64,000 nt of DNA from Mortierella sp. BCC40632. Lineage: Eukaryota > Mortierellomycota > Mortierellomycetes > Mortierellales > Mortierellaceae. The stretch covers positions 3,428,501 through 3,492,500 of the forward strand of contig WAEK01000002.1 in NCBI GenBank assembly GCA_011634665.1. Reading direction: 5' to 3'. This document shows positions 6,515-63,944 of the stretch, one piece after another (the stretch's first letter is position 1; each line of letters starts with the position of its first letter). Under the pieces are notes generated by a model, which was given only the letters and a program-made list of their open reading frames with translations, ran no database searches and had not been told where the DNA came from. Position numbers and translations under genes: made by a program.

Positions 6515-8985
6515 ATGAGCAGGATCAGTCGCCAGAGCTCCTTCTGGCTCTCCTCATTCAGAGCCGCTCGAGGTCTCGCCCATAACCTGAAGCCTCAAAC
6601 GTGCAGGAATAGAGTACAGAGCATTTGTACATCCTACCCCAGCCGTGATCTGGCCTCGTCTTTGTCAACCTCATCCAATGCCACCCCAGCCTCTGAAGAA
6701 TCCTCGACTACAGCAGAGTCAAAGACGACAAGGAAGCGAGGAAGAGCAAAAGCGACCAGCCATATGAACGCATCTGATCTCGACAGTCTCTCAAATAAAC
6801 TTATCAGCGATCTCTATGACAGACCTTCTGCAGGAAGCAAGGTCACTGTCCAGGACATCCTCGCTCTGAGACCACCAAAATCCAAAGTAACAGCCGAGGA
6901 GTTTGACAAAATCAAAGAGCAACTCGCAGACTCATTCAACGTTTCTCAGCTCAGGGATGTCCTTCGATCTGTCCGGATGCCTGCTGGACGCAAAAAAGCC
7001 GCCTTGCTGAATCAGGTCATGGTACTTATGAAACTCGAGGTCGTTGTTTCAAAACCAACAAAGAACAAGCTACTCGAGGCTCCCTTTTCGCCTGTAGGGC
7101 CAGATACCGTTTCAGAAGTTTGTCCCTCCAATAGAAGAGATTTGTATTTCATCTTGGGTGGAGAGGGTGACACGATGAAAAGAGTCGAAAAAGAAAAGAA
7201 CGTGCGGATCTCAATCAATATTGCGGACGAGTCGTATCTGATCCAAGGCGCCAAAGACTCGGTGGCAGAGGCGAAAAAGGCGATCGAGGAATTGGTTGCA
7301 GTCACGGAAGAATCCTGGGATATTTCTGAATACAAGGACAGAGCACTAGTCACTGGAGAACCAGCTGCCTTGGAAGACATTGCTCGTCGATCCGGTACTT
7401 TTGTTTCTGCAGAGAATGAGGATACTCTTGTGATCTCAGGACGATCTGCTCGTGAAATGGAAGAGGCAAAGCGACTCTTTGAGTTGAAGATTCAAAAGGT
7501 ATGGCGGTCAGCACTATTATTTTTTCTCTCCTTTTTGTCTATTCTTTCAGTAAGACTATCAACACACTATGGAATCAACTCACCATTAACATTTCTATGC
7601 GACGCACTCTCTTTGGTTAGCCAAATCTCAATGTGGATAGATTAGCATTCATTCACCAGGAGGATGAGCTCAAGTATGTTGGCATGTTCCCTGTTTACGA
7701 CTCTATTACAATGACTCCGGATGAGGCTCAAAAGTCTTATTTCCGAATCTGTCAAGTGGATGCAGTAAGTCAAACTGAAAACGAAGTTGGAATTGGTGCG
7801 ATGAAAAAAAAAAAAAAAAAAAAAAAAAAAGTATACTGAATGACTGCTGACTCGGCGCTGATCTTGGTTTGACTTGCTATAGTTTGCAGACACATCTTCA
7901 GAAAATGGAAATATACTCCCAGTCATGGCAACCCCAACCAGCATTGGAAGTACTTTGGCACTAAAGGATCACATGCAGACATCTATGGAAACAGCCAGAA
8001 AGCCAGGTCAATCTCTGGAGCTCGCAGCTCATTTTGGGCAGGTCCTCTTCCGCAACCTTGACTCCAGAATGACTACAACCCCGATTCCATCTTCATTTGA
8101 TTCTTTGGATCTGGAGCAATGGCTCAAGACTGTTGAAGATCCATATTTCTTTGAAAGGTAATAGAATCATTGGCAAAATTTCGAGCGAAACGAATTCTTG
8201 GATATCAATTTTTTTCTCTCTCTCCCTCGCTTTCTCTAACATGGTTTCTGCACTGTGTTTGTAGCTTGCCTTTCTTCAAGGCTGTTTCACGTATCCCACT
8301 CATTGGACCAAAGCGACGAACGATTGATGTTGAATATATTCCCACGGCACGCGTCACCCCTGGTTCTTCACATTATGAATCAAACGGCCCCACAGCAGAC
8401 ATGAATCGCAGGATCCACATCACATTGGAGATGAATGATCAAGAAGGCTTGGTCTATCTTCGAAACAGTCGATTCATTGACCATCAACTACTTGCCAATA
8501 TGATGATGCTTGGTCAACCAACGGATATTCAAATTCGAGGGGAGCTCTCGACTCTATTAGGACCCGAAAATAGACCATTGAAAGATCTTCTTTCCAAAAC
8601 TACCTTGTCCTCCACAAGCCAATTGGAGTGCCCCGGTTTCTTTTCGTTCCGTGAGACTGCATCACCGGAGTCATCACCATCACTATCATCACCGGAGTCA
8701 TCCTATTCCTCTCCAGCCGAAGCGTCATCAGTCTCATCTGCGGTTGTATTGCCACCTTCCGTCTCGCCTATTATCTCTCAGTTAGGATTGTCGGCCACTC
8801 ATACACTCAAAAGTATACAATTCAAAACCACGGGCGTATTTAATTACAAGGGACTCCCCCTTGTGGCCTCCGACATCAGGGACCAACACAGTCAAATCCG
8901 TAAACAAGAACTCAAAGTAAGGAATCAGACGGACTGTTCTTTTGAGAAGTACATGCATATACCACTATTCATCTAACACATCACT

Positions 8986-49512: not shown

Positions 49513-50439
49513 CTAATTATGGCCTATCGCTCTAGGATCACTCGAGACCAACTGCTCCATATCCATTTGGCTGTACTTGTCCTTTTTTGACTGCTCCTGG
49601 AGAGTTGTTGCAACAAAGAGGATGACTGGATAAAGTATCCCAAAGAAAGAACCGAATGCGGTCAACAGTGTGAGGATCAAATCCCAACCACTCTTGTTTA
49701 CGTTCTCCCAACACAAGTAGGACGTCTTGATGGTCACATTTTGGCCAATCATCGCCAATTGCCATACTTCATTGCGCTTTTCAGTGAAGTATTTTAGCAG
49801 CGTCCATGGGGCAGTGGTTCCATTGTTGTCGGTGACGTGACCCCTTACTTCCTTAAAGCCTTGCGCGTTGGTCCAGACACGAATAAAGCAGTTTTCGGGG
49901 TCCCTATAGTCTCCATCCAACACGATAGTGGACCTTCCAACGTCTCTGTTGTCGAAAATCAACCCTGGAAGTGGAATTAAAGCGTTGCTCCCTGGACAGG
50001 TCACACTAAGGTCCGAGTCCCATCCAAAGCCAATGTTGGATACCGTATCCACAACCATGAAGAAGTTAGGGCCAGAGTCGAAGCGGCATGAAGCATTATA
50101 AAAGACATGCGTGAATCGGTCGGAATGCAGAACCACTCTGTAAGAGATTAGTTGATCGCATCTGTAGACTGTGTCCTTGTAGTCGAACTGCTTTTCGAGA
50201 CCATCCACCCTTCCTGCAAAAAAGGTGTTATTAGGCTGTGCATGGGCCCCATTGAATAACCTGTTTGGGTGACATTTGCCCTCCTCGTACTTCATGGAGA
50301 GGTGCTCAGGTTTGTCGACCTTTGTTACGAATGTCCACACCATTGCGCCCGACATTGACAAAAAAAGAGCAACAATAATGAAAGCCGTGTAAGCCCTGGA
50401 GAATGGCTTAGTAATAGGGTAACTCAGTCCGAAAGCCAT
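49513..50439 (-). CDS. Unrecognised two-TM membrane protein
   Basis: 308 residues from ATG 50439; the frame is open further upstream, but that part looks like 5' UTR. One TM helix near the N-terminus (about residues 15-37, AYTAFIIVALFLSMSGAMVW) and one near the C-terminus (about 255-282, LILTLLTAFGSFFGILYPVI) enclose an ectodomain of about 215 residues. The ectodomain has several cysteines (KCHPN, YRCDQ, ASCRFD, VTCPGS, ENCFIR) and NxS/T sites (NNT, NAS, NGT, NVT). The C-terminal tail is short and charged. I do not recognise the family; it may be restricted to this fungal lineage. A surface receptor-like or structural role is only a guess. Confidence 0.7.
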   Translation of the reverse strand: MAFGLSYPITKPFSRAYTAFIIVALFLSMSGAMVWTFVTKVDKPEHLSMKYEEGKCHPNRLFNGAHAQPNNTFFAGRVDGLEKQFDYKDTVYRCDQLISYRVVLHSDRFTHVFYNASCRFDSGPNFFMVVDTVSNIGFGWDSDLSVTCPGSNALIPLPGLIFDNRDVGRSTIVLDGDYRDPENCFIRVWTNAQGFKEVRGHVTDNNGTTAPWTLLKYFTEKRNEVWQLAMIGQNVTIKTSYLCWENVNKSGWDLILTLLTAFGSFFGILYPVILFVATTLQEQSKKDKYSQMDMEQLVSSDPRAIGHN

Positions 50440-51231
50440 GGCTTGGATAGCTGTGCAGGTATATGAGTAAAAGGGCTGGACTTGATGGAGGGGTGGAAAA
50501 GAGTATGTCGACAGTAGGAAGAAAAGGAAGGAGCATTGCTTCTGGTTTTTATATTGGCCGAAACAGTGGTGAGAACTGCGGTGGGGCGGGGGAGGGGGGA
50601 CAAGGCACAACCGGCATAGAAACAAAACAGAGTCAGTGTTGACAATCCAGGAACGGCGTATCTTGACTTTCCTGCGACCAATCAAAGATATCAAGAAGGG
50701 GTAGAAAAGAAAAAACCTCAGCCCTTTGTGTCCGATCAGTACAGTTGGCAGAGGAGATTTGAGCCTGCGAGGTCACCAAACTTTCTTTTGGCTGTGCACA
50801 GAGTGTGGCTGCGTTGTCACCTTATCAGGACGAGCAGATGGGTGCAAAGGTGTCTCATACCACATGCCACGGTAACAGACAATACTTGCCACAACGCCTG
50901 TGCAGAGTAATGAACCATGATTACGGAATTGCTGGTAGCTTTTTGAAGGAGGAGGAGGAGAAGGAGGAGGAGAAGGAGGAGGAGAAGGAGGATGGATGGA
51001 TGGATGGAAACAGTAATCAACAACAGCCACCTTCCTTTCTTAAATTTGACTTTGACTTTGACTGGTTACAAGCTCTGACTGAGTTCAGGTCAAAAGTTAG
51101 ATCCTTGCCTTGCTTGAGGCCTTGGCAGGTCACAAGCTCTAATTGACTGGAGGAAGAGTAGGGGCGAGACTGTGCAACTTTCCACACCTTTGTCTCGCCC
51201 ATCACCACAATGCACAAGTCAACAGCTGGTA
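50440..51231. other. Upstream region with GGAGGAGAA repeats
   Basis: Promoter side of the two-TM gene. Contains an imperfect GAAGGAGGAG repeat at about 50946-50990 followed by (GGAT)n. No gene recognised. Confidence 0.5.
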
Positions 51232-54820: not shown

Positions 54821-57260
54821 TCAGCATATTTCTTGCACCCGCCTCCGGGGTTGAAGGCTAGGGACGGCCTCCCCGTTGTTGTGGGCCTGCTCTAGTGTTG
54901 ATTGTGGCTCATAATCCGAGGAAAACCCATGGGTAGATGGGTGTGAATGGTCCACAGACAAATATGATGATGCTGTAGTGGCGAGTCGTTGATAGTGAAA
55001 GAGATGTCCCCTGATCTTGACAACATAGACGGAATAGACCAAGGCTCCAGCAACAACGCAGGTAAACGACAATGTACATGGGATATAGTAGTCTCCTGGC
55101 TCGAACCAAATCATGGTCAAGATAAATTGTCCCAGTTCAAAGATGCTCATCATTGAATAATGCCAGCCATTGAGCACACCTGCGTTCCCGTGGCTATCCG
55201 AGATATACTCCTGCATTGTCTGTGTAATAACAAGGTCAAAGGACCAGACGCCTATCCTTGAGAGCGCCATCCCAGCTGGTTGATAGAGAGACAGTCAATG
55301 TTAGCAACCATGTGAAGTTGGCATAACTCACTAAATCCAGTCTCAACTATTTTACTACATACCAAAAATCACCGCCTGAACTGGTAGAACATTGGAGTAT
55401 ATGGAGAACACAACCGGAGTCAGGGTTAGAACCTCAAACCAGATCGACCATGCTCCTGTTCGTACCAATCCGATATACCGTGTAGCGATCGGCATGATAT
55501 GTGTTCCGAGCAGCTCTGCTGCGGTACAAATGCCCTTCAAGGTAGCAATGGATCCTGCGGAAAAGCCTCTCCATTGTAGGTATCCGATCATAGTGCCTGA
55601 TACACTCATCAGGTTGATGTAGATGATTGCATACGATAGAGAGGCTATGTCAAAAAGAACATGTTAGAACAACCGGATCAAACAAACAGCGGCCATATCC
55701 ATGAGAAATCAGTGGAGACCAGCCAGGAGTATGATCCTACCGAGAAAGACAATATGGTAGTAATATTCTTCGAAAGATGATATTCCTCTTGTAACAAGTT
55801 TAAACGGCTGAGAATCGAGACATTGACTCTGATTAAGGTTAATAAGCTCTGGTGAGCCAACCCTGTCCAATCTTTCTTCGTGATTTTCCTGCTCTGTTTG
55901 ATGGTTCCCAGAAAGGCTTCTATTATGTTTCAAATGGCGACCATGCCAGTTTGGGTTGCTAGAAGGGTGAATTGTGCGTGGTCTCCATAGTACCGGAGAG
56001 GTTGTCCAAATCCTGCGAACAAGCGTCAGCTCCACACAGAACGAAAAAAGGGCCCACGCTGCTAAAGAAAGGGCGCAGTAGCCGGCTCCGAACCTTGCCA
56101 GTATCGCTGCAAAGATTAATGGCGCAACAAGCTTGCAGGCTAGATCAATCCTTTTCATGCTAACATTGATCCCTGAACAAGATTCGATAAGCGTGTGAGT
56201 AATCCTCCTCCCCTTTTTTTGTACATATTTCGCACTTTTTAATGAGATGGAAGCAAATCTTACTAGTGAGTGTTTCCGAGCTGGACTGGCAAAGACATAC
56301 AATCCAGTCTCGCTCGATTGAAATTGACCATCCCAAAGCTGACAACTTTAATACTCCGCTGAGAATGACGAGGAATGCAAAAAGCGCGTAACCCTGATAG
56401 AGAGTCATTGATCCACGGCATTGGTGTAGAGTTGCTGGCGACCCATTTCCATCCTGAGATATTGAACAAGGCTCCGACATGGAGGCGTCAAAGTGCTCGA
56501 GTAGAGCCCAAAAACCAGTGTAACCGAGAATAGTTGAGAACTTTTGGGTGGTGAGAAAAAGCTGGACGGCTTTTTTAAGGTTGGTTGGAAGCCAGAGTCC
56601 ATGACACAGAAAATTGACAACCATGTGGATAGATTAGAGAAAGGAAGAAACCGAGCTAATGGGTTAGCGGTTGATTCCGGGTTTGGAACAGCTACGAAAG
56701 GACAAAGGGAAGAAGCAAAAGAACAACTCGTTGAAGTACCATTCAGACGAGGCATACGGTCAACAACAAGGCCGACAGCCGTGCTTAACAGGATTCCTGC
56801 CACGGTGGTCGAGAATCCATAAACGGACATTGGTAGTAATGTCGTTTTAAAGATCTCTATCAGAAAGAAGTACGATGCAAACTCATAGATCCGTTCATCG
56901 AACGTACTACCCAGCGAAAGAAAACGACGGTTCATTTAGCAGCTGCTCGCTCCTCATTTCGCTATAGTGTAGGTGTTGCGATCTCCGAGGTGGTCAAACT
57001 CACCAAAATGCGTGGACGGCATAGAGTGCAGCAATTGGTATTGATGGTGACTCTTGACTATCCAATTGACGATTCCTTTGAAGAATAGGAACACTGCTTG
57101 AGTCGAGATGATCCTCTTCGTCCTCTATGTCGCTTCTATCGTCCCGGCGGTCATCGTGAAGCATGGTTTGGTCCGCTTGAACTACTCCGGTAGGTTGTCG
57201 ACTGCTGCTAATTGTGGATGGGACTGATGGTGTATGTTGGGATCGAGAAGAATGCAGCAT
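54821..57260 (-). CDS. SLC40A1: Ferroportin-like iron exporter (SLC40)
   Basis: Major-facilitator-type exporter of Fe2+. Six exons: 57260-57004, 56906-56740, 56569-56264, 56172-55741, 55644-55363 and 55275-54821; 632 residues. After an acidic disordered N-terminus of about 75 residues, TM1 begins at AALYAVHAF. Family segments: FFLIEIFKTTLLPMSVYGF, ISIERDWIV (the conserved R-D-W-I-V), VSMKRIDLACKLVAPLIFAA, LQWRGFSAGSIATLKG, and SRIGVWSFDLVITQTMQE before the last helices. The TM1 metal-site His and Asp appear kept (HAFCTFDE). The second-site pair seems lost: where vertebrate ferroportin has its TM7 Cys and TM11 His, I see no Cys and a Gln (ELGQFILTM). A charged loop of about 110 residues splits the two halves. 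Exon 3's acceptor follows six A's. Confidence 0.88.
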
Positions 57261-57923
57261 GAGACGATTGCAAATCCATGAAGGGAGAAAGACAAGAGAG
57301 AGAGAAATGAGTTAATGTTGCACTTTTATGGGCAACCAATGCCGACGGACTGTCGGAGTCGTGGGGCAAATCTCCAGGTTTTTTTTCTACCAATCGCCCG
57401 CATCTCCTATCTTTTTCACAGCCTGGGTTCAGAGTTACGGGCAGACTCTTCTCGAATCTTGCACCAACAGGCTGCGCTTCCTCTCGACTGCTGACAGTGC
57501 TCTCAGCTGCCCAACTTTTGTCAAGAATGGAAGGATCAGGGAGCATATTCCCCTAGTGGCCTTGTCGACTACTGACGAGGATATTCTTCACCCCTATGAT
57601 TCCTTCCACCCTTTTATGATTGTCATTGCTTAGCACCCCCCTAAAAAAATCCCACTTTTCCTTTTTACCTCGCTCTCATGCTCAGAAAACAGTACCTGGG
57701 CGAAGTCTTCATTATATCATGAGTGGCTAAGATGTTCCAGATCAGTCTCTTTCATCACCTGCATCAGGAATGAATGAAATGCACCCTCTCGCCCAGACTA
57801 AGGTGATTTTGGTTCGCTGGCTCGAGCCACCGTGGGCGGTGCTCGTTGTGGAATGAAAGTGGAATGACTGCGTTTGAAAGAAAAAAAAAAAAAAAAAAAA
57901 AAAAATCGCTCCTATTTTATAGC
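57261..57923. other. Region between ferroportin and the viral RdRp ORF
   Basis: 663 bp holding the ferroportin promoter and the unknown upstream junction of the viral insert. An A25 run (57881-57905) lies 18 bp before the likely RdRp start. The RdRp frame is open back to an ATG at 57846, but this would translate the A-run as poly-Lys. Confidence 0.6.
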
Positions 57924-59849
57924 ATGCTCCCACGGAGGTGGGAATGCTCTTTTATTTGCCAATCCATGGCTGGACTTCCATTCGCCGCCAGAGAGTTCTC
58001 ATCGTCAAACATCATGTACGGACCGCCACCTCCACTATACTCCACTCAGCAGATGCTGGGGGCCCTTGATGCCCTTCCGATCAGAAACTACACACCCTAC
58101 AATCAACGAGGTCCGTACAACAACTACAACAACTACAACAACCGTCGACCTCACAAGACTCCTCCACTATTCGACTCCGAGGAGCTGGAGAGAATACGGG
58201 AAAGGCTGGTTCAAAAGTTCAACTTCTTCACGTTTCATAAAAACGCAAAGTTCTATAAGCCAATGGACAAGATGATTGACATGGTCGAAAAGGACCCTTT
58301 CATTATGAGCTTCAGCTCCCTTCAACCGCCTCCGCTACCACTAGACGTGGACCTTTCTCGTATCGACTATATTAAATCATGTTCTCTTATCCAGATGAAA
58401 CATTTGGAGCTCTTTAATCGCCCTCCTCGTGAGATACCCAGTCAGTATGCCAAACCGTTTCGACGCGCTGTACAACATGTCGCAGCACTGCTAGAGCTTC
58501 CCACGAAGCTCCCCATGCCGACCGAAGATTCACTCCATAGCGTCAAATACGACCGATCAAAGTTTTCAGGTCTGTTTTATGCACAGCAAGGCTTAAAGAC
58601 AAGGGGAGATGCTCATGGGGAGGCGATTCATGATGGAATCCTAGTCTGGAAAACCCTTCTTCGAGGACAGCGCGTCCCGCCTCATGACACAAGACTAGGT
58701 GGGAAAGGCAAGCTAGTCACCAAGGATAAGGAAAATCACGGCAGAATCGGAGAAGGCGACGACGGCTTGGCGATGGGACGACTTATTCTTATGCTGAGTC
58801 ATCGTGACCTTCTGATCCTGGGCGCACTCGAGCAACCTCTGACACAAGAGTATCTGGATTCTAGTTACCCAATCAATATCGGTCAGAGTTGGTATCATGG
58901 AGGCTCTGCAACGTTTGTCAACAAGCTCGCTCGACACTCAATCTACCACTGCTTCGACGCTAAAAAGTTTGATGCGTCGATTGACCCTTGGCTAGTGAAA
59001 GAGGCACTATTGATCCTACGGAATCAATTCGTGGATGGACTGAATCCTAAATACGACACTCTGTGGGAATTTGTTTATGAGAGTCTAGTCAACCCCGTTA
59101 TCTGTCGTGACGATGGCATCCGTATGCAGAAGCATGTGGGAACAACATCGGGCAACTGCTTCAATACGCTTGTTCAGTCCATCATCACACTCTTCCTTGG
59201 ATACACAGCGCTAATTGTCAAAGCAAATGAACGATTTGGTGATTTTGGGGTCGAGTTGGTGCTGTCGCAGAGCGTCATTGAAGCCTTGGGCGACGACATG
59301 GTCATGGCACTGGAGGCATCGTGGTCATATCTCACAAAGGAGCCACTTTCTGAGGTCGTCCGAGATTGTTTCAACATTGACTGGTCAGGCAAAAAGTCGT
59401 TCTCTACCAATCGACTTACAGACGATTCAACACCCGATACAATCCCTTTTCGTGGTGTCCAGTTTTTGGGGATGTATTTTCGCTGGCAACTTTGGAGTGA
59501 AGAAAGATTTGCACCAAAGGTCATTATACCCTACCGCCCCTTCAAGGAATCATACCTTAGTCTCCTGTTCCCAAAATATGGTAAATATTCTATCGAGCAC
59601 TCTTGGCTACGCGCCCTTGGGATCTACTACAACGCCGCAGGCAACCCAGTTACTCAGGAGTGGCTAGAGAAATACATGGATTACTTGGAGTCTTTAGGAT
59701 TCCTAGCGCCGGATCAGTGGCCCCCACATATGGAGAAACTCATCACAAAGGACTTTTGGGATATTGGAACAGAGGCTCCAAAACCATGTAGGATCAGTAA
59801 AAAGCAATGGTACCAGTTTGCCTGCTTTCCAAAGGTTGAGGACTGGTAG
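57924..59849 (+). CDS. Endogenous partitivirus-like RNA-dependent RNA polymerase
   Basis: Uninterrupted frame of 641 codons from ATG 57924 (667 if begun at 57846; another in-frame ATG is at 57966). RdRps of this type replicate double-stranded RNA mycoviruses. Canonical palm motifs are visible: motif A with Asp codons at 58956 and 58971 (DAKKFD), motif B with TSGNCFNTL (about 59140-59170), motif C GDD at 59289-59297, then a KS pair and an FLG segment as in motifs D/E. Motif B and the length point to partitiviruses (Durnavirales) rather than narna-, mito- or totiviruses. It sits in nuclear DNA between ferroportin and retroelement remains, so it is an endogenous viral element. No stop or frameshift is seen. 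I found no viral capsid gene. Genus and expression are unknown. Confidence 0.9.
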   Translation: MLPRRWECSFICQSMAGLPFAAREFSSSNIMYGPPPPLYSTQQMLGALDALPIRNYTPYNQRGPYNNYNNYNNRRPHKTPPLFDSEELERIRERLVQKFNFFTFHKNAKFYKPMDKMIDMVEKDPFIMSFSSLQPPPLPLDVDLSRIDYIKSCSLIQMKHLELFNRPPREIPSQYAKPFRRAVQHVAALLELPTKLPMPTEDSLHSVKYDRSKFSGLFYAQQGLKTRGDAHGEAIHDGILVWKTLLRGQRVPPHDTRLGGKGKLVTKDKENHGRIGEGDDGLAMGRLILMLSHRDLLILGALEQPLTQEYLDSSYPINIGQSWYHGGSATFVNKLARHSIYHCFDAKKFDASIDPWLVKEALLILRNQFVDGLNPKYDTLWEFVYESLVNPVICRDDGIRMQKHVGTTSGNCFNTLVQSIITLFLGYTALIVKANERFGDFGVELVLSQSVIEALGDDMVMALEASWSYLTKEPLSEVVRDCFNIDWSGKKSFSTNRLTDDSTPDTIPFRGVQFLGMYFRWQLWSEERFAPKVIIPYRPFKESYLSLLFPKYGKYSIEHSWLRALGIYYNAAGNPVTQEWLEKYMDYLESLGFLAPDQWPPHMEKLITKDFWDIGTEAPKPCRISKKQWYQFACFPKVEDW

Positions 59850-60777: not shown

Positions 60778-60837
60778 AAGTGATGTTCTCGCTTGCCATC
60801 CTTTCCGGTTGAGAAAAATGGTCTTTATTTTTGGGCA

Positions 60838-60861
60838 AGGGCCAGTATTTTTACTGGCCCT
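60838..60861. repeat. Perfect 10-bp-stem hairpin, copy 1
   Basis: AGGGCCAGTA / TTTT / TACTGGCCCT. On the minus strand it is followed at once by CCTTGCCC and an AATAAA-like signal, as in copy 2 at 61473-61496. Confidence 0.9.
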
Positions 60862-61002
60862 GAGCAGTCCGCCTTCAGAGTAAAAATGCTGTCTACAGCG
60901 TGGCTACAGACCGCCTATAAACGTCTCCTTGGATGTCAATTTTAGGTTCCTAACTTCCTATTACTTTTTACTAGATATATTAATGTTGATCTACAACATC
61001 CC

Positions 61003-61152
61003 GGATAAAACTCAGACTATGGGTGATCGCTGCCATCCCTGAGTGTCTCCAGATTAAGTACTTTGGGGGTCTATTCTCTGTCCCTTCTCTTGGCTGCTGC
61101 TCGAAACGCTTTTTAGCTTCTATCTTGGTTTTGTTGGCGGCCCTGTTGCCCC
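61003..61152 (-). repeat. Dispersed repeat, copy 1 (coding-like)
   Basis: About 150 bp clearly related (roughly 80% by eye) to 63770-63920, same orientation. On the minus strand both read as a similar peptide with EAKK-FEQQPREG and RPPKYLIW cores, so the relation extends to protein level. Family unknown. Confidence 0.8.
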
Positions 61153-61472
61153 AATCATTAATCAGGTTGATTGCCTCCTCTCAGATCTCCCTTCGCTAGG
61201 TCTCTGATGCTGGGCAACTCTACACACGGCATTTCGCATCGCTGTACAGATCTGGGTACCGAGCAAACATTACGTTCCCTGTTGGAAGCATTCCAAACAA
61301 CTTTTTGACCCGGTGGGTCCGTTGTTTGGTGTCTTCAGTTCCACTGTAGAACGAGTAGACTTGGTGGTTATCATGCACAACTGACTAAGTCGATCTCTAT
61401 GCCACATTTCCTAGTGATATGAAATGGAAAGGTGGTATCGGTGAGATGGGGTGTGTGTTTTATTCAAAGGCA

Positions 61473-61496
61473 AGGGTCAGTATTTATACTGGCCCT
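61473..61496. repeat. Hairpin, copy 2
   Basis: AGGGTCAGTA / TTTA / TACTGGCCCT: the same hairpin as 60838-60861 with one G-T change in the stem. It lies just after the RNase H stop of the gypsy fossil, with TTGAATAAAACAC downstream on the minus strand. Confidence 0.88.
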
Positions 61497-61526
61497 GTTA
61501 AGCCAGCTTTCTATTTAGGTTCCTAT

Positions 61527-62146
61527 TTATCGACTTTGTAAAGTCAGGTCTAAAATGGTGTCGAGCCACGACACTAACATTGGGGCAAGCTCCTTCTTCT
61601 CGCGCATGTACACCAATGTCTTATGGTCTGTATATAGAGTAAACTTCCTTCCCCACAGGTAGGAATGGAACCTCTTCAGTGTAAATTCAATGGCAAGAAG
61701 CTCCTTCTTAGTATTAGAGTACTTCTTCTCTGCCGGTTTCAACTATCTGGCAGCTAAAGCAAAATAGCGTCTCTTGCCATCGATCATTTGGTACAATACC
61801 CCTGCTACTACTCCTTCTGCCTCCACTCCTAAGCCAACTGTGCCACATGGTCCCCCTCATCCCGTCTCTTCTCACCACGCATCTCATCCACCGCCATCGC
61901 ACTCACGTAAATCTGACCCTGACCCTATATCAGTCTCGCCAGGCTTTCCTCCATTCTCACACACATTTGCTCCATCTTCTGATCCATCCTTGTCTCCATT
62001 TCTGTGATACGTTGATTTAGCATCTGGAAAAAATCCATTGCTCTCTTCACACGTTCCTCAGAATGCTGGACAGCCGCCTTCACTAGGTTGACTATGCTTT
62101 GCTCGCTTCCTTGAAATTCACCAGTAAGGGGTAATCTGCTAGGCAA
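61527..62146 (-). mobile_element. Degenerate Ty3/gypsy retrotransposon: gag-like and RNase H pieces
   Basis: On the minus strand, 62146-61925 is a coiled-coil, Met/Glu-rich frame (RVKRAMDFFQMLNQRITEME) like the N-terminus of a gag protein. From about 61850 to 61527 lies the RNase H domain of a pol polyprotein: GVLYQMIDGKRRYFALAAR, KKYSNTKKELLAIEFTLKRF, YLWGRKFTLYTDHKTLVYM. An in-frame TAG (61743-61745) breaks it. Protease and reverse transcriptase are missing between the two pieces, so a large internal deletion has occurred. No integrase follows. Long terminal repeats were not clearly identified. Confidence 0.85.
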
Positions 62147-62250
62147 CGCGCCGAGGCGGCATCGCTGGTGATAGAAAAGAGTGTAGATGTATCTCTTCTC
62201 TAGAGCGCCAGCGATGCGTATCGACTAGCGCAGTGAATGACAAATAGGAA

Positions 62251-62361
62251 CTGGAAAGGTTCCTCACATAAAGGTCAGTTTATTATCGTGTAAGAGATGG
62301 GTATACATAGTGCTACGAGAGGGTCCAAGGTCCTACCTGGAAAGGTTCCTCGCATAAAGGT
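62251..62361 (+). repeat. Pair of 25-bp direct repeats
   Basis: CTGGAAAGGTTCCTC followed by (A/G)CATAAAGGT occurs at 62251-62275 and again at 62337-62361, 86 bp apart, upstream (minus strand) of the gag-like fragment. It may belong to a long terminal repeat or a rearrangement junction. Confidence 0.8.
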
Positions 62362-62472
62362 GAGGAACTCTCCAGGCAGGGGTGTCTGCTATTTATATGG
62401 CGTCGCCCCAAGGGTGACGTGCTCCAGCAGGGGGGTTGATGAGTACTGCTCCGCCTGCGGCGAGAGCAGTAG

Positions 62473-62526
62473 TTTTTTTTTTTTATAACAATCTGTTTCC
62501 GCTGGAATAGCCGTGTAGGCAAAACT
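62473..62526 (-). mobile_element. Poly(A)-tailed retroposon 3' end, copy 1
   Basis: On the minus strand the sequence ends TAGGCAAAACTAAG-type bases, then GAAACAGATTGTTAT and a run of 12 A's (here T 62473-62484). The same end with a longer tail occurs at 63083-63146, suggesting a SINE- or LINE-like element copied by target-primed reverse transcription. Confidence 0.6.
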
Positions 62527-62869
62527 AAGAAAACCTAATCTAGCCCCGGCCACTGCAAAGCGATGGCATAGTTGCAGGAGAGCCAAGTAGGGTTGTTTGT
62601 CCTATAGAGCGCCTGTTATAGATTACCTCGATTCAGGATACTGGGGTGAGCGTTTTTTTGTTAACGAGGGCCCCACGTGGGCATGCAGAGTTTATGGAAT
62701 ACCGGGCTACTGGCATGTTGTCACTTGGGCCATAACAGGATCTAGCCCTGCAAATAAACACTAAATAGTTTTACCTAATGTCCAGATACTCTGTTCGTCA
62801 TCACTTGCGTCGCATGAGTGGTCGTAATGCCAGCTCCCTACGCGGCCTGTTGCGCTCATTCGTCGTCTT

Positions 62870-63045
62870 TTAGCCCTCTTGGTCCATCGCTAACACTTTT
62901 TTCCAACTCCCTAGCCGCTCCATCACCTCCAGCTTTCTCTTTCCAAGGTAGTACTCATGCACAGTACGGTCTGCTTCATCGTATGCCTCCTTGAGGTTCG
63001 GCTTCTGCCTCAGCGGATTGTTCAAGTCGGAGAAATTTCCACAGC
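62870..63045 (-). pseudogene. Unidentified coding fragment in repeat region
   Basis: Open for about 58 codons to a TAA at 62872-62870, reading NLKEAYDEADRTVHEYYLGK and a Leu/Trp-rich end. Upstream it shares GTTGCGTCTCCCAGC (63069-63083) with the 63.9 kb repeat, so both probably come from one repeated gene family. Not recognised. Confidence 0.4.
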
Positions 63046-63082
63046 TGCTTTGGTGTCCGTCAGCACCGTTGCGTCTCCCAGC

Positions 63083-63146
63083 TTTTTTTTTTTTTTTTTT
63101 TTTTTTTTATAACAATCTGTTTCTGTTAAGATAGCTACGTAGGCAA
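63083..63146 (-). mobile_element. Poly(A)-tailed retroposon 3' end, copy 2
   Basis: Same terminal sequence as copy 1 (62473-62526) with a 26-nt A tail on the minus strand (T 63083-63108). The tail abuts the unidentified coding fragment at GTCTCCCAGC, marking an insertion point. Confidence 0.6.
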
Positions 63147-63160
63147 AGAACTAATCTAAG

Positions 63161-63179
63161 GTCACCACATAGTGGTGAC
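63161..63179. repeat. 8-bp perfect inverted repeat
   Basis: GTCACCAC-ATA-GTGGTGAC, inside or just beyond the copy 2 retroposon end. Its role is unknown. Confidence 0.8.
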
Positions 63180-63383
63180 AATCCCCCCGTAACCATGTCA
63201 ACTACACGTGGCCAGTGACTCCGCGCAACGACTGCCATCCCTCGTCAGGATGTTTGAAAATTGAAAACAGGTTAGGTCACCGGAATGGGATCCACCCCAT
63301 TCTCTCCATCATCTCCAAACGTCGCCTCCCTGCCAGACTGTCTAGCGAGCGAGCATCTGCTGCTTCCATGCCAGCTTGGGTCC
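63180..63383. other. Repeat-region spacer
   Basis: Short spacer between the retroposon end and the repeat-borne ORF. Nothing recognised. Confidence 0.4.
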
Positions 63384-63944
63384 CTAGACAACGTCCCCCC
63401 TCATGTCCTTCAATAAGTGCTCCACATGGGCATGCACCAGGAGCGCAAAGGAGATCATAGCCATAATTCTATTTAGCTCTGGCTCCCTTAGTAGGGCATC
63501 TTTTTCTCGAGCGAAGATTCCATTGAGCTGCTCCCACTCGATAGTCGTTTCACACCACTTCTTCCAAGGCTCTTGTGTTGCTTGTTCCTGGGTGTGATCC
63601 ACAAACCGATGCGATATTTCAGCTGCTACTCCCTCTGTCACCTTGAAAAGAGTTTTCCAGGTTTTGTTAAGTATCGCTTGTGCAACACCTCGACACAAAG
63701 AGCCAAAAGTCCATTGCGAAGGAAGTCTTGTCTGGTCTGTAGCTTCTTGAGGCTGCGTGGGGGTTTCCTGGATGAAATTCAGACTCTGGGTGATCGCTTC
63801 TGTCCCTGGGTGTCCCCAGATTAGATACTTTGGAGGTCTGCTCCCTGCCCCTTCTCTTGGCTGTTGCTCAAAATGCTTTTTCGCCTCTGTGTTCGCTTTG
63901 TTGACAGCACTGTCGCCCCCCGTTGCGTCTCCCAGCGCGTTTGC
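63384..63944 (-). pseudogene. Repeat-borne ORF fragment, unknown family
   Basis: Open for about 186 codons on the minus strand (in-frame TGA at 63947-63945) with no ATG until well inside. The N-terminal part holds the repeated segment (EAKKHFEQQPREG, RPPKYLIWGHPG), also found at 61003-61152. The C-terminal part (AQAILNKTWKTLFKVTEGVA, MAMISFALLVHAHVEHLLKD) is helical. Two copies within 3 kb of transposon remains suggest a mobile-element or lineage-specific repeated protein. No function assigned. Confidence 0.5.

Follow-up and report, generated by a model that had tools for sequence, protein, structure and literature searches.

The window, that is, the whole stretch of 64,000 nucleotides of Mortierella sp. 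BCC40632 DNA analyzed here, carries an RNA-dependent RNA polymerase (RdRp) gene that is very probably an ancient curvulavirus-like RdRp turned host gene, captured once long ago, inherited vertically, and probably equipped with a core that still works. An RNA polymerase is the one enzyme that an RNA virus cannot do without, and fossil virus genes are, to our knowledge, mostly debris. Here, host fungi of many genera appear to have maintained a viral RNA polymerase in working order. The locus comprises the following features:

54821 to 57260, minus strand: ferroportin (FPN1/SLC40) gene with six exons according to our splice reading, in head-to-head orientation relative to the RdRp gene (PF06963 and spliced frame)
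57881 to 57905, plus strand: A25 tract between the ferroportin and RdRp genes (sequence)
57924 to 59849, plus strand: endogenous curvulavirus-like RdRp gene, for which an intronless reading suffices (641 amino acids from the first ATG)
58116 to 58142, plus strand: Tyr/Asn repeat in the N-terminal extension of the RdRp (sequence; low predicted confidence)
58950 to 58973, plus strand: motif A, C-F-D-A-K-K-F-D, with Asp 345 and Asp 350 (sequence and alignment)
59145 to 59174, plus strand: motif B, TSGNCFNTLV (also given as GTTSGNCFNTL), with Asn 411 (sequence and alignment)
59289 to 59297, plus strand: motif C, G-D-D (sequence and alignment)
60800 to 63900, no strand assigned: repeat-dense stretch downstream of the RdRp gene (interspersed repeats)

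The RdRp frame at 57924 to 59849 (plus strand) has no stop across its 641 codons and matches the Pfam family RdRP_1 with 57.7 bits (E = 1.2e-15; cut-off, 23.9), and its AlphaFold2 model has an RdRp fold (mean pLDDT, 85.2; pTM, 0.84). An earlier, sequence-only reading had described an intact 641-codon frame with motifs A, B, and C in fungal nuclear DNA, and both parts of that description hold: the RdRP_1 profile and the ORF itself each match one place in the 49.9-Mb genome, and this copy sits inside a 3.6-Mb contig, adjoining the ferroportin gene. The GC3 value of the RdRp is 0.52, and the five neighboring genes span 0.48 to 0.57. The codon-use score of the frame is a weak discriminator, as the score of one reverse frame comes close to it. 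Of the two candidate ATGs, that at 58014 is likelier than that at 57924 to be the true start and would give a protein of 611 amino acids, since the Lunasporangiospora protein P0001 seems, judged by eye, to begin opposite it; the other results hold with either start.

At least 53 RdRp homologues were identified among the best 7,996 candidates scored out of 5.8 billion proteins (the three protein searches scored the best 7,989 to 7,997 candidates, chosen by shared words). Thirty-one of these (P0001 to P0031) are 50% to 82% identical to the window protein. Three are encoded on contigs 6 to 11 kb in size, and 28 named proteins come from ten genera, all listed in the Mortierellaceae: Lunasporangiospora, Gamsiella, Mortierella, Linnemannia, Podila, Haplosporangium, Dissophora, Entomortierella, Lobosporangium, and Gryganskiella. 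For eight of the 18 listed Mortierellaceae genera, there was no RdRp match among the best-scored protein candidates. The remaining 22 homologues are 32% to 45% identical to the window protein; six are named viruses and, among the matches listed, these six are curvulavirus-like bipartite mycoviruses and their kin (34% to 43% identity). The RdRp search and tree that the sequence-only reading had proposed as a check placed the window protein and the 31 relatives in one Mortierellaceae clade (UFBoot, 100; SH-aLRT, 100; 100% of 200 bootstrap trees), with curvulavirus-like viruses as the nearest viruses. The tree takes in 54 rows, 32 from the clade and 22 others; the seven proteins P0101 to P0107, from a later profile search, are not among these rows. 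Within the clade, the closest relative of the window protein among the matches listed is that of Lunasporangiospora selenospora (82% identity), followed by the other rows at 50% to 64%. The stem of the clade measures 1.31 changes per column, and part of this change could have happened in an unsampled virus. In neither the first protein search nor the later profile search was a protein named Phycomyces present among the matches listed, and a scan of viral contigs gave 27 pattern matches, none of which was confirmed. Two RdRps outside the Mortierellaceae clade, P0046 (on a 145,563-base contig) and P0045 (on a 13,448-base contig), are possibly further endogenous copies, since these contigs are too long for such viral segments; P0046 reads GDE in place of GDD.

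The recent capture offered earlier as one explanation of the clean frame is contradicted by this clade, which spans ten Mortierellaceae genera at identities of 50% to 82%. The intact frame and the presence of repeats on one side of the gene would suit either a recent insertion confined to this one genome or a chimeric assembly. However, either event is hardly credible, given the 82% identical homologue in L. selenospora, those at 50% to 64% in the other clade rows, and a neighboring gene common to other genomes. In addition, random substitution in this frame is expected to create ~8 stop codons for every 10% of divergence at the nucleotide level, or ~4 to 24 stops at 5% to 30% neutral divergence, and none was seen. 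The general statement that endogenous double-stranded RNA (dsRNA) virus genes are usually broken misfits this lineage as far as seen, its homologues being long open frames drawn from a protein database that is blind to broken copies.

Among classified viruses, the window RdRp is nearest to the curvulaviruses by protein search, by fold matches, and in the tree. It had been called partitivirus type, and the Partitiviridae do share the order Durnavirales with the Curvulaviridae and the RdRp fold with the window protein. However, the nearest named viruses are curvulavirus-like, and a partitivirus origin was rejected: no partitivirus is found among the six named viral matches listed, and in the 50 best viral fold matches the curvulavirus-like models are 32% to 45% identical to the window protein, compared with 15% to 18% for partitivirus and partiti-like models. 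In size and motif order, the RdRp is similar to those of the Curvulaviridae and bipartite mycoviruses, represented by Cryphonectria parasitica bipartite mycovirus 1, Botrytis cinerea mycovirus 3, and Curvularia thermal tolerance virus, the last of which is 38% to 45% identical to the window RdRp over partial models. Unlike these viruses, the clade rows are without the basic N-terminal cluster and have SGN instead of SGH in motif B. The predicted fold alone does not place the family of the RdRp. The top Foldseek rows are coronavirus nsp12 proteins with 12% to 13% identity, and the polymerase of Aspergillus fumigatus polymycovirus 1 (PDB 9jkc/9jkd) is 13% identical to the window protein, with calicivirus polymerases within ~1 Z unit. 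A phmmer search of the RdRp against PDB sequences gave no match, and the A2 profile matched one chain there (1khv; E = 1.6e-7).

The ferroportin flank named in the sequence-only reading is a real gene. Three exon pieces each match PF06963, the spliced frame at 57260 to 54821 (minus strand) encodes 621 amino acids, and this is the one place in the whole genome matched by PF06963. The RdRp and ferroportin reading frames lie ~660 bases apart. Judged by locus tags and contig sizes rather than by aligned DNA, the two genes are on a common contig in five of seven other genomes, six of which were scored by a shared locus-tag prefix and one, Lobosporangium, by an equal-sized contig. Tags two apart on equal-sized contigs were identified in (i) Mortierella sp. 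GBA30 (BGX28_001391 and BGX28_001393), (ii) M. alpina (BGZ70_006436 and BGZ70_006434), (iii) M. polycephala (BG011_007686 and BG011_007684), and (iv) Podila clonocystis (BGZ82_009076 and BGZ82_009074); in Lobosporangium, both genes are on a 472,804-base contig. In M. hygrophila and L. zychae, both of which belong to the Linnemannia part of the tree, the genes are on different contigs. The linkage in the assemblies of other species, as read from locus tags and contig sizes, contradicts an assembly join to viral cDNA, another of the explanations first offered. A neighborhood common across genera indicates one old insertion, and we strongly infer that a single such event lies behind the clade.

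Local gene order appears to have changed while the neighborhood stayed common across genera. In Gryganskiella P0030 and Mortierella sp. AD094 P0023, a related extra protein (34% identity over 189 residues) precedes the RdRp, and a RING finger is present in that of P0030 only. These models are probably two adjacent genes merged by annotation; a real fusion with the RdRp is possible. The gene that elsewhere lies between ferroportin and RdRp may be this RING gene, in the same direction as the RdRp. No RING gene was found in the window by tblastn. Its best match in the genome is on contig C15 (55%), and ~13 kb downstream of the window RdRp there is a RING-type match that is much weaker.

The gene family, its expression, and its host-like tree have been published (PMC7482067; PMC12548735). 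Endogenous sequences of the same lineage were reported from the Mortierellales and Phycomyces by Myers et al. (2020, mBio; PMC7482067), who found the family as mRNA and wrote of a "seemingly" novel fungal gene. The more recent report (Virus Evolution 2025, veaf074; PMC12548735) places 64 sequences in a single clade of Mortierellaceae, whose nearest neighbor is Curvularia thermal tolerance virus, with an endogenous RdRp tree that mirrors most of the host tree; among the 316 isolates of one study, 53 carry the RdRp on a contig. As far as these descriptions go, the window gene agrees with them in fungal family, kind of gene, curvulavirus kinship, single clade, and host-like tree, and, judged by the tree rather than by accession, it is one more member of the Mortierellaceae endogenous RdRp clade. 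To this we add the common neighborhood, the rate comparison with ferroportin, the retention of the active site, and the absence of the basic cluster. A word search of the main texts of both reports found no occurrence of "synteny," "purifying," or "selective," and "GDD" solely in another context; the word search for "ferroportin" covered the main text of PMC7482067. No functional study of a Mortierellaceae endogenous RdRp was found among the matches listed from the open-licence literature.

In PMC12548735, very strong host specificity is left as an alternative, and some sequences from virus discovery projects fall inside the clade. Both points would suit exogenous viruses that are strongly host specific, codiverge with the Mortierellaceae, and are seen in assemblies as contamination or as separate insertions. 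Such viruses are nevertheless a very improbable source of the clade, since the RdRp and ferroportin genes share contigs, the window copy lies inside a 3.6-Mb contig, and the P0030 and P0023 models carry related extra protein upstream of the RdRp, with a RING finger in one of them.

At the protein level, the RdRp appears to behave like a constrained host gene. Mean identities over the 55 pairs of 11 species are 0.673 for RdRp and 0.678 for ferroportin, with the RdRp being the more conserved of the two in 25 pairs, and the distance matrices of the two proteins are correlated (Mantel r = 0.85; 0 of 20,000 permutations as high). In this rate test, the paired proteins of Gamsiella, P. verticillata, and L. 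elongata come from different assemblies, those of Lobosporangium come from two annotations, and some ferroportin models are partial. Small trees of the two proteins have four of eight splits in common; this comparison adds little either way, since one RdRp-only split and no ferroportin-only split is well supported. Site variability in the clade is correlated with that in the other rows (Spearman coefficient, 0.67 over 536 columns). Among the 68 columns invariant in the nonclade rows, 56 show the same residue throughout the clade, 2 do so in all clade rows except one, and the other 10 have changed; 107 of the remaining 468 columns are identical throughout the clade. That an old insertion is expressed yet dispensable, with its frame kept by chance, is very unlikely, because the RdRp diverges at the pace of a transporter gene and its site variability tracks the variability seen in the viral rows. 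Of the three options that the sequence-only reading had offered, evidence at the protein level best supports selection on the host copy.

The N-terminal extension sets the clade apart. In the AlphaFold2 model of the window protein, pLDDT is below 50 at residues 1 to 38 and 51 to 79. A basic R[RK][RK] cluster precedes the core in 15 of 15 nonclade rows versus 1 of 31 clade rows, and the sole clade row with the cluster has it at the core boundary; the count took in the rows in which 15 or more residues precede the core, 31 of 32 in the clade and 15 of 22 outside it. Median extension lengths are 120 residues in the clade and 61 outside it, a difference partly due to fused models, and the median shares of Arg plus Lys in the extension are 0.11 and 0.21, respectively. 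The loss of the basic tail would fit a polymerase that is no longer packaged with a viral genome. A polar, Asn-rich N terminus was dropped as a mark of the clade because, on recount, the ranges of the N+S+Q+T+Y share overlap (0.14 to 0.45 in the clade versus 0.21 to 0.43 in the others).

By its sequence, the window RdRp has the motif A and motif C aspartates, the motif B SG and N, and the motif D lysine. Both motif A aspartates are present in all 32 clade rows and all 22 other rows, and the motif B SG and N and the motif D lysine are present in all 32 clade rows. The GDD is kept in 31 of 32, the exception being the Lobosporangium gene model P0026, in which seven residues are missing at this point, possibly through a gene-model error. 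Basic residues R257, K263, R286, and R294 are also found in all 32 clade rows and presumably belong to motif F; the motif letters are our own assignment. From these residues, it is fair to infer that the RdRp would be a catalytically active polymerase. The clade also has changes of its own: in motif B, all 32 clade rows have SGN and all 22 others SGH (H411N), another ten columns differ between clade and nonclade rows in a fixed or nearly fixed manner, and the residue after the GDD is Met or Thr in the clade versus Asn in most nonclade rows. The activity of the clade polymerase may have shifted, since ten otherwise invariant columns have changed, H411N among them. The changes beside the catalytic motifs (H411N and the Met or Thr after the GDD), together with the absence of the basic N-terminal cluster, would also be compatible with domestication for a nonpolymerizing role, in which the protein binds viral RNA or jams the replication of related viruses as a dominant-negative restriction factor. 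However, some drift would then be expected in the motif A aspartate pair, the motif D lysine, and the putative motif F residues, which are present in 32 of 32 rows, and in the GDD (31 of 32), and we regard such a role as unlikely.

The genome also encodes candidate RNA interference (RNAi) components. In six-frame translations, the cellular RdRP family (PF05183) is matched at one place in two adjacent stretches, Piwi (PF02171) at three places, and Dicer_dimer (PF03368) at three places, the third weakly; several of these matches run over stops, which are presumably introns. With matches to all three families present, the captured RdRp does not appear to be a stand-in for a missing RNAi polymerase, and replacement of a lost cellular RdRP was rejected. 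The cellular RNAi RdRP belongs to a Pfam family separate from that of the window RdRp and would make dsRNA too.

Under the preferred reading of an ancient capture that became a host gene, the polymerase segment of a curvulavirus-like dsRNA virus would have been copied into DNA and inserted near the ferroportin gene in the genome of a fungus ancestral to many Mortierellaceae. The copy would then have passed down vertically, losing the basic N-terminal cluster of the viral enzymes while its polymerase core was kept under constraint, and its product might make dsRNA that feeds the fungal Dicer/Argonaute pathway beside the cellular RdRP. For this last step, we tentatively suggest that the enzyme might copy host transcripts or infecting viruses into dsRNA for that pathway, the simplest role for a conserved polymerase with its catalytic residues intact in a cell with Dicer and Argonaute, be it in antiviral defense or in the regulation of transcripts. 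Slightly more speculative is the idea that much of the Mortierellaceae uses the captured polymerase as a working cellular RdRp, a second dsRNA-making enzyme acquired separately from the ancestral RNAi RdRP that it accompanies, so that a parasite replicase could now serve host RNA surveillance. A conserved neighbor and a single copy make the gene a clean deletion target, which would allow a direct test of captured replicases in RNAi and antiviral defense.

The A25 tract was not adopted as the tail or scar of a retrotransposition, since it is on the 5' side of the RdRp gene and similar A/T tracts recur in the window. Downstream, the retrotransposon fossils of the sequence-only reading find a counterpart in the density of interspersed repeats from 60.8 to 63.9 kb, and the two ORFs scanned downstream of the RdRp, which gave no Pfam match, lend that description nothing further. 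One interspersed repeat of ~430 bp, at positions 62653 to 63082 beside a T tract, has at least 18 further near-full-length copies with at least 90% identity in the genome. Elsewhere in the window, positions ~1189 to 1400 hold a long Asp-Asn (or, depending on the frame, Met-Thr) dipeptide repeat inside open frames, and an ORF at 49513 to 50772 (minus strand) has a subthreshold match to the heme transporter family HRG (14.2 bits; cut-off, 27). Beyond the window, downstream of the RdRp (L018, 7576 to 8568), there is a long ORF that resembles, by eye, a GH16/CRH-type cell wall glycosidase.
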